A DNA stretch of 39,748 nucleotides from Magnetovibrio sp. (GTDB lineage: Bacteria > Pseudomonadota > Alphaproteobacteria > Rhodospirillales > Casp-alpha2), in contig JAPPPF010000125.1 of the NCBI GenBank assembly GCA_028817665.1, positions 1-39,748 of the forward strand. The letters are read 5' to 3'. This document shows, piece after piece, positions 1-2,080 of the stretch. The notes under the pieces are model-generated. The model saw nothing but the letters and a program-made list of their open reading frames with translations. It made no database searches and had not been told where the DNA came from. A program made the translations under genes and the position numbers. Every line of letters begins with the position of its first letter. Within the stretch, counting starts at the first letter, position 1.

Positions 1-750
1 CGGCGCGCCGATCCCCTCGGTCTCGGAGAGCCGCGCCCGCAACTCGTCGCGGTGCGCGTAGAGCGCCGTCAGCACGTGCGCCGCGCCCTCCAGCGCGTCG
101 GCGCCGGCGCTCGGGTTGCCGGCCGGCGCCAGCCAGCCGCGGATCTCGACGTCCAAGTTGAGGACGCCCGTCGTCGCCGTGCCGACGGCGCCGGCGCGCC
201 CCGGCACGATCACCCAGTCGGGTTGCGTCGCGCCGCTCTCCAGGAGCCACCTCGGCCCGAGCTCGCCGCCGCCGAATCCGTCGAAGGTGACGTGCAGCTC
301 GACCGCGCCGGCGAGGTCGCCTGAAATCTCCTCCAAGGCCAGGAGCGCGAACACGTAGGCCGCCAGGTCGCCCTTGCCGTCGCTGGCGCCGCGGCCGTAC
401 AGGCGTCCGTCCTCGATGGCGGCGGCGAAGGGCTGGCGCGTCCAGCGCTGGCCCACCGGCGCCGTGTCGACGTGCGCGGAAAGCGCCAGGGTCGGCCCGT
501 CGCCGAATTCGCGGCGCACGATCAGGTTGCGGAGATCGGCCGCCTCGCCGGCCGACTCGGTCTCCACCTTGAGGACGTCGGGCGTCAGCTCCAGCGCCGC
601 CATCGCGTCGACCAGGCGTTCGCGGATCGCCGTGGTCTCCCCCGGCGGGTTCTCGCTCGGCACCTTGACGATCTCGGTCAGGAACGCGAACTGGTCGGCG
701 CGCCGGGCCACCAGATAGGCGTTGATCCGTTCCCTGTTGGTCTGCTCCAT
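1..750 (-). CDS. M20-family peptidase-like protein with degenerate active site (partial, C-terminus off window)
   Basis: I translated this by hand because the ORF track lists only shadows here. The minus frame is open from ATG at 750 to the window edge (250 residues seen). The N-terminal half is plainly M20/ArgE/DapE-like: HVDTAPVG at residues 93-100 and YGRGASDGKG at 118-127 supply the HxD and bridging-Asp motifs. The second half departs from the family. The catalytic DEE motif reads DGF (157-159), the usual GEPT metal-ligand segment reads VPGR (182-185), and the dimerisation-domain RGxxAHxSxP motif reads RGWLAPAGNPSAG without its His. The frame stays intact with good codon usage, so this looks like a maintained protein and not a decayed pseudogene. 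It is divergent from argE across 166 bases. Inference: a metal-compromised pseudoenzyme or a changed activity. Missing C-terminal ligands cannot be judged. Confidence 0.85.
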   Translation of the reverse strand, partial: MEQTNRERINAYLVARRADQFAFLTEIVKVPSENPPGETTAIRERLVDAMAALELTPDVLKVETESAGEAADLRNLIVRREFGDGPTLALSAHVDTAPVGQRWTRQPFAAAIEDGRLYGRGASDGKGDLAAYVFALLALEEISGDLAGAVELHVTFDGFGGGELGPRWLLESGATQPDWVIVPGRAGAVGTATTGVLNLDVEIRGWLAPAGNPSAGADALEGAAHVLTALYAHRDELRARLSETEGIGAP

Positions 751-916
751 GGACGCTCGACACTCCCGGCAATGGCCGAAGCTGGCAAACTCCGGCGCGA
801 TCGTCAATCCATAGCACGATCCCGCATCGGTGAATTGCGCGGGCGGGCGAAACCTGCTTTTCTCCGACGGTCCGAAGACCCCGCAACCCATCATCGCACG
901 TTCGCATAGGATCGCC

Positions 917-2080
917 ATGGCCGCCGACACTTCCATCGACATGATCAAGCGCTTGATCGCCTTCGACACGACCAGCCGGGAATCGAACCTGGAGTTCCTC
1001 GACTTCGTCCAGGGCTACCTCAAGGACCTCGGCGTCGACAGCCTGCGGGTGCACAACGAGGAAGGCACCAAGGCCAACATGTACGCCACCGTCGGCGCCG
1101 CCGACAAGCCGGGGATCATGCTCTCGGGGCACACCGACGTGGTCCCCGTCGATGGCCAGGAATGGGACACCGACCCGTTCCAGGTGGCGGAAAAAGACAG
1201 CCGCCTCTACGGCCGCGGCACCTCGGACATGAAGAGCTTCATCGCCATCGTGCTGGCCATGCTGCCCCAATTCCAGGCGCGCGGCCTCAAGACTCCCCTG
1301 CACCTCGCGTTCTCCTACGACGAGGAGGTCGGCTGCATCGGCGTGCGCCGGCTGATCGAGAAGATGAACGGGATGCCGGTGAAGCCGGCCATGTGCATCG
1401 TCGGCGAGCCGACCAGCATGGACGTGGTCACCGGCCACAAGGGCAAGCGCTCCTACCGCATCCACGTGCGCGGCTTCGAGGCCCACTCGAGCCTGGCGCC
1501 GCATGGCGTCAACGCCATCGAATACGCGGCCCGGCTGATCGCGCACCTGCGGTCCCTGGCCGACCGGATCCGCGAGGAAGGGCCCTTCGACGAGCTCTAC
1601 GACGTCACCCACACGACCGTGCACACGGGCACCGTCGCCGGCGGCACCCAGCTCAACATCGTCCCCAAGGACTGCCACCTGGAGGCCGAGTTCCGCTACG
1701 TCGGCGGCCAGGATCCGGACGCGCTGGAGGCCGAGATCCGGGCCTTCGCCAGCGATGTATTGGAGCCCGAGATGCGGGCCGTCCACGCCGACACCGGAAT
1801 CACCATCGATTGCTACAACGACATGCCCGGCCTCGACATGGACGTCGACGCCGACGTCGTCACCTTCGTCAAGGCGCTGGCCGGCCGGAACGACCACAAG
1901 AAGGTCGCCTTCGGCACCGAGGCCGGCCTGTTTCAGGTCCGCGCCGACATCCCGACCGTGGTCTGCGGCCCGGGCTCCATCGACCAGGCGCACAAACCCA
2001 ACGAGTTCATCGAACTCGACCAGATCACCGCCTGCGAGCAGTTCCTGGAACGCCTGATGGACCGGGTCTGCGAGAGCTGA
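917..2080 (+). CDS. argE: Acetylornithine deacetylase (M20 family, ArgE)
   Basis: ArgE hydrolyses N-acetylornithine to ornithine and acetate in the cytosol using a dinuclear metal site. The 387-residue product has every M20 motif in order: SGHTDVVPVDG, YGRGTSDMKS, SYDEEVG (catalytic Glu plus metal Glu), VGEPTS, RGFEAHSSLAP and, near the end, GPGSIDQAHKPNEF, which is typical of ArgE. The track starts the frame at 830, but the ATG at 917 gives the normal family N-terminus and has AGGAT just upstream, so I use it. It is divergent from a degenerate M20 paralogue. Many alphaproteobacteria use ArgJ for this step, so related N-acyl substrates are possible; the ArgE subfamily assignment is firm, the physiological substrate less so. 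Confidence 0.92.
   Translation: MAADTSIDMIKRLIAFDTTSRESNLEFLDFVQGYLKDLGVDSLRVHNEEGTKANMYATVGAADKPGIMLSGHTDVVPVDGQEWDTDPFQVAEKDSRLYGRGTSDMKSFIAIVLAMLPQFQARGLKTPLHLAFSYDEEVGCIGVRRLIEKMNGMPVKPAMCIVGEPTSMDVVTGHKGKRSYRIHVRGFEAHSSLAPHGVNAIEYAARLIAHLRSLADRIREEGPFDELYDVTHTTVHTGTVAGGTQLNIVPKDCHLEAEFRYVGGQDPDALEAEIRAFASDVLEPEMRAVHADTGITIDCYNDMPGLDMDVDADVVTFVKALAGRNDHKKVAFGTEAGLFQVRADIPTVVCGPGSIDQAHKPNEFIELDQITACEQFLERLMDRVCES

Follow-up and report, generated by a model that had tools for sequence, protein, structure and literature searches.

A predicted M20 pseudoenzyme maintained beside an intact argE-type deacetylase gene

The window (the whole stretch of DNA analysed, 39,748 nucleotides) opens with a truncated gene whose product, judged by its residues, is an M20 protein, a member of a conserved family, and catalytically dead. 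We hold with high confidence that this pseudoenzyme is a maintained non-hydrolase. The best explanation overall, with a probability of roughly 0.4, is that a dead M20 protein is made together with ArgE and modulates ArgE-type deacetylation; modulation of ArgE itself is offered as a tentative best guess.

The window is one contig of a draft genome (3.2 Mb in 312 contigs) and base 1 is a contig end, which is why the C-terminus of this copy is missing; the gene itself is not broken. Read on the minus strand, from position 750 down to 1, it has an ATG start and 250 stop-free residues (Table 1), bearing out the clean open frame described in the earlier note, and the orthologue frames are open as well. 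The fragment, which ends inside the PF07687 lid domain, matches PF01546 (Peptidase_M20) at 55 bits (E=9.8e-15), above the gathering score of 24.6, and scores 123.1 bits against TIGR01910 (ArgE/DapE), below the cut-off of 217.6, with only the fragment available for scoring.

Table 1. Positions of the features in the window
Feature	Position	Strand	Remark
M20-fold pseudoenzyme gene, N-terminal 250 residues	1..750	-	3' end lost at contig edge
LAPAG replacing lid-domain AHxS, residues 207-211	118..132	-	Lid His lost (Pro)
VPGR replacing GEPT, residues 182-185	196..207	-	Glu metal ligand lost; sister enzymes likewise
DGF replacing DEE, residues 157-159	274..282	-	General base Glu to Gly, metal-ligand Glu to Phe
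GRGASDGKG, residues 119-127	370..396	-	Asp at bridging-ligand position; minority of clade only
HVD, residues 93-95	466..474	-	His ligand and Asp of the M20 HxD motif, kept in window
Intergenic region shared by divergent genes	751..916	.	166 bp between start codons; 72-166 bp in orthologues
Bipartite element AATTGAC-N12-GTTTGCAAG	782..809	-	28 bp, 2 mismatches in window; candidate shared operator or promoter
argE-type deacetylase	917..2080	+	NF005710/PRK07522 568 bits (cut-off 412); TIGR01892 398 bits

Sixty-six sequences were compared at eight key sites (H, D, bridging D, base E, ligand E, GEPT E, lid H and C-terminal H). Aligned with the adjacent ArgE, the window protein reads H, D, D, G, F, P, P, the C-terminal His lying beyond the contig end. 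The earlier note had recognised an M20 homologue without its catalytic Glu and several ligands, and the change of DEE to DGF, that of GEPT to VPGR and the absence of His from the lid motif were all confirmed. Catalytic machinery is gone from all 22 relatives examined, and patterns in the argE-linked clade include HDDGFPP- (window), HDEGVPSA, HDDGAPPT, SDASQAPS, HDSGEGPH and NDSGEPPG. The base Glu is absent from every clade member in which the site is readable (0/20), with Gly in 17, a shared loss well beyond what chance would produce. The lid His is retained in one of 20 sequences, the C-terminal His in 3 of 17 orthologues (with a slightly uncertain alignment in genus g14) and the second Glu (ligand E) in 13/20, while the HxD motif keeps its His in 15/20 (the other five have N, S, A or Y) and its Asp in 19/20. 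Two residues invariant in the sister group are also depleted: the NTNVV-loop Asn (0/18) and the Asp of TDARHY (2/17). The GEPT Glu is absent across the whole clade and the sister group. Evidence that catalytic columns are lost in preference to other sister-invariant ones is no more than suggestive (six columns, Mann-Whitney p=0.07), because HxD is kept. The altered residues are those that serve as zinc ligands in DapE, namely H68, D101 and E164 for Zn1, and D101, E136 and the C-terminal His (H239 in the truncated construct) for Zn2 (PMC4012986). Some members, in which HGD and the second Glu remain, may bind metal weakly.

The bridging position calls for a narrower reading. The earlier statement that HVD and the bridging Asp are kept holds for the window protein, but the Asp is not a feature of the clade: within it, D or E occurs only in the window's genus and genus g8, with S, A or a gap in the others; E is found in the G037 relative and Val in the sister enzymes. 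Because of this distribution, the window's Asp, as far as the alignment goes, need not be an inherited ligand.

Searches of 61 relatives returned strong full-length matches with 37-59% identity to the window protein, the nearest full-length orthologue being that of genome G003 (59%). In a profile search of 48 genomes from its own taxonomic family, the pseudoenzyme is present in 20, spanning 7 genera; G014, in which the gene is cut by that genome's own contig end, probably also carries it. The order-level search (297 genomes) added, as strong matches, those of G037 and G078 from a second family together with DEE-type sisters, and at class level (385 genomes) all matches whose sequence was read, which is all but a few, are of the DEE type. 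A maximum-likelihood tree of 19 argE-linked sequences, the G037 protein and the sister group places the first 20 in a single clade (support 100/100) separate from the sister group. The DEE position reads D-H-E in G037 and D-H-Q in G078; since both proteins are degenerate yet occur without this ArgE, loss of the base Glu probably preceded argE linkage or was independent of it.

Complete orthologues measure 407-433 residues, with intact C-termini and neither frameshifts nor internal stops. Most closely related pairs give the pseudoenzyme a dN/dS of 0.06-0.18, and one recent pair gives 0.39 (0.31 for argE in that pair). These values are mostly similar to those of argE in the same pairs and nowhere more than roughly three- to fourfold larger, estimates that are rough as many dS values are near saturation. 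On this sequence evidence, the pseudoenzyme is under purifying selection and not in plain decay. An AlphaFold2 model of the G003 orthologue, built with 40 sequences, has a mean pLDDT of 92.5 and a pTM of 0.90, and its best foldseek matches are M20 deacylases that align along its whole length, including RPA2325, DapE and E. coli ArgE (E down to 1.6e-30). PF07687, the dimerisation (lid) domain, was found in the full-length argE-linked orthologues tested, with no match in L022. Fold, dimerisation domain and reading frame are thus kept while the catalytic residues are lost.

Genomic neighborhood analysis links the pseudoenzyme to one neighbour: it divergently adjoins ArgE in 20/20 of the family genomes that carry it. 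The window ArgE reads HDDEEEHH, with all M20 catalytic residues intact, as does the adjacent ArgE in 19/19 checked. Shared base loss, low dN/dS, intact C-termini and this complete ArgE together uphold the earlier view of a maintained pseudoenzyme diverging from an intact argE. The association is asymmetric. ArgE of the same type occurs in 39/48 family genomes, and 19 of these 39 have no pseudoenzyme, one of them (G014) having a contig end where the gene would start. In genomes without the pseudoenzyme, ArgE keeps every catalytic residue where checked, and it therefore does not need a partner; no consistent compensating change in ArgE tracks presence or absence of the pseudoenzyme in the genomes checked, and no clear remnants lie beside argE where the pseudoenzyme is absent. 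G037 and G078 carry degenerate relatives in the absence of such an ArgE, which is therefore not required for the protein's persistence. The earlier proposal of a regulator or subunit of an N-acyl amino-acid hydrolase accordingly stands in part: the strict linkage favors it, whereas the two genomes without ArgE and the intact ArgE without pseudoenzyme do not. Linkage of this kind does not by itself demonstrate that the two proteins interact physically.

ArgJ is encoded in 44/48 family genomes, including all 23 of good quality, and was not found in the window's own incomplete assembly. This ArgE is consequently not the sole route from acetylornithine, and its role alongside ArgJ is probably that of an accessory or catabolic deacetylase. 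Tandem argE paralogues occur in G018 and G005 (L159, L160) and in G023, all genomes without the pseudoenzyme.

The bipartite element has its halves at a fixed spacing in the argE/pseudoenzyme gaps. Across the 48 family genomes, 14/14 exact matches fall in such a gap, 19/20 gaps match within two mismatches, a genome normally has one good copy, and a reversed control pattern matches at background level. In genomes of the same genus that have no pseudoenzyme the element is missing too, except in G030, which keeps it. Weaker copies lie beside gmhA in G030 and G025 (L197, L198), so the exclusivity of the element to the gap is not absolute. Compared by eye, its spacing gave no convincing fit to a sigma-70 or sigma-54 promoter. 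A separate feature of the window is an inverted GGGCTTGACCCGGTGATCCACGAC / GTGGATGCCCGGATCAAGTCCGGGCATGAC repeat at 2380-2480, in the long non-coding stretch after argE, which resembles a dispersed palindromic repeat.

Having lost the water-activating and transition-state-stabilising residues, the pseudoenzyme would not hydrolyse amides and may instead work by binding. It would be produced together with ArgE and could modulate ArgE-type deacetylation through a lid-domain hetero-oligomer or through a shared N-acyl amino acid ligand; an accessory or catabolic ArgE activity may need such restraint. Since such M20 enzymes use the lid domain to dimerise and DapE lacking its dimerisation domain is inactive (PMC4012986), the linkage would be explained most simply by a hetero-oligomer with ArgE or by competition for its substrate. 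The most specific version, an allosteric or hetero-oligomeric regulator of the ArgE-type deacetylase expressed from a shared divergent promoter marked by the 28-bp element, is doubtful, and a regulatory-subunit role has been found for no M20 protein in the literature searched.

Given the second-family genomes without ArgE, a free-standing small-molecule binder or sensor is nearly as likely as ArgE modulation, though by itself still a rather unlikely reading. Its dead pocket would hold an N-acyl or carbamoyl amino acid, its target would be other than ArgE, and the linkage would reflect a shared inducer or an inherited position. Presence of the protein without ArgE in two genomes is consistent with this, as is the fold retained in the AlphaFold2 model, and the clade-specific invariants R17, F21, T98, C309, D391, R394 and E398 (G003 orthologue numbering) hint at a surface or function peculiar to this protein. 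However, such a sensor leaves the strict main-family linkage unexplained, and the expected substrate contacts, the loop Asn and the lid His, are gone from all sequences but one for the His.

Modulation of ArgE-type deacetylation is better placed than the remaining alternatives. An enzyme with altered chemistry that relies on what is left of the site (HxD, plus one acidic residue in some members) and on at most one metal is improbable. The frequent retention of HxD and of the second Glu fits it, and among the best fold matches are structures of 5-nitroanthranilate aminohydrolase, an M20 enzyme with unusual chemistry. Against this, no member has the base Glu, the HxD His is replaced in five, the bridging site may be D, E, S, A or a gap, and no new conserved polar set replacing the lost site was found in the clade alignment, so the new chemistry envisaged in the earlier note is not borne out.

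In several genera, Heparinase II/III, glycosyltransferase, carbamoyltransferase and Asn-synthase genes adjoin the pseudoenzyme (L136-L142, L144), a set that suggests a surface-polysaccharide locus. That the pseudoenzyme is a component of this locus, outside ArgE metabolism, is a poor prospect: these genes lie immediately downstream in several genomes, and in G022 the glycosyltransferase gene is codirectional at about 133 bp (a rough gene call), but they are convergent in most genomes and vary between genera, and in three same-genus genomes argE adjoins the glycosyltransferase gene without the pseudoenzyme. Pseudogene decay, an isolated mutation or an error in sequencing or assembly, to which the contig-edge truncation and the faster evolution of the clade relative to ArgE might point, is very improbable: every orthologue has an open frame, dN/dS stays far under 1, and all members, from independent assemblies, have lost the base Glu. 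The earlier note had named such a mutation or error, and a frameshifted C-terminus, as grounds for giving up its reading; no argE-linked orthologue has DEE, and the C-terminus is intact in the full-length ones.

Among kinases and M16 peptidases, the control of active enzymes by dead homologues is a familiar arrangement. No such case was encountered for the very large M20 family in the literature searched. The graded series from intact sister enzymes through half-degenerate second-family members to fully degenerate argE-linked members makes the loss of catalysis and the gain of a non-catalytic role testable. The clade is also a warning, as annotation pipelines would label these pseudoenzymes deacylases.

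A parallel among metallopeptidase pseudoenzymes that partner active paralogues is mitochondrial processing peptidase alpha (M16; review PMC11266112), likewise a dead homologue beside an active paralogue; it belongs to a different family and its heterodimer has been shown, whereas one with ArgE is inferred here. In that review, a text search for M20 hit only a substring of a citation, and the literature searched, in which subscription journals are poorly covered, held no published M20 pseudoenzyme of this kind. 5-Nitroanthranilate aminohydrolase (PDB 5k8m-5k8p) shares the M20 fold and ranks among the best structural matches of both the orthologue and the sister models; identity is about 17-23% and, unlike the pseudoenzyme, it is a working aminohydrolase. 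With the ArgE/DapE deacylases (TIGR01910; NF005710 neighbour), the pseudoenzyme has in common homology and the M20 fold of catalytic and dimerisation domains. Unlike them, it lacks the base Glu, the GEPT Glu and the lid His.

The nearest relatives are sister proteins of the 'ArgE/DapE family deacylase' type (Azospirillum, Roseomonas, Variovorax and others), with roughly 35-42% identity to the full-length orthologue. The pseudoenzyme clade shares an ancestor with this widespread M20 group, the GEPT Glu being missing in both. Over 40 sister sequences read HDVEEAHH with minor exceptions, with Val in place of the bridging Asp; a widespread group with GRGxAVSKSD at this position comprises L017, L039, L040 and L065-L104. 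Profile alignments made directly against solved ArgE and DapE likewise place these enzymes apart from the textbook M20 site, and their residues suggest that they are possibly single-metal M20 enzymes. Their structure model equals that of the G003 orthologue in confidence. Of about 43 sister genes, 20 adjoin an allantoate-amidohydrolase-like gene, a neighbour also found on Azospirillum and Roseomonas plasmids. Unlike the pseudoenzyme, the sister group has no argE neighbour and keeps HGD, the catalytic DEE, the lid His and the C-terminal His.
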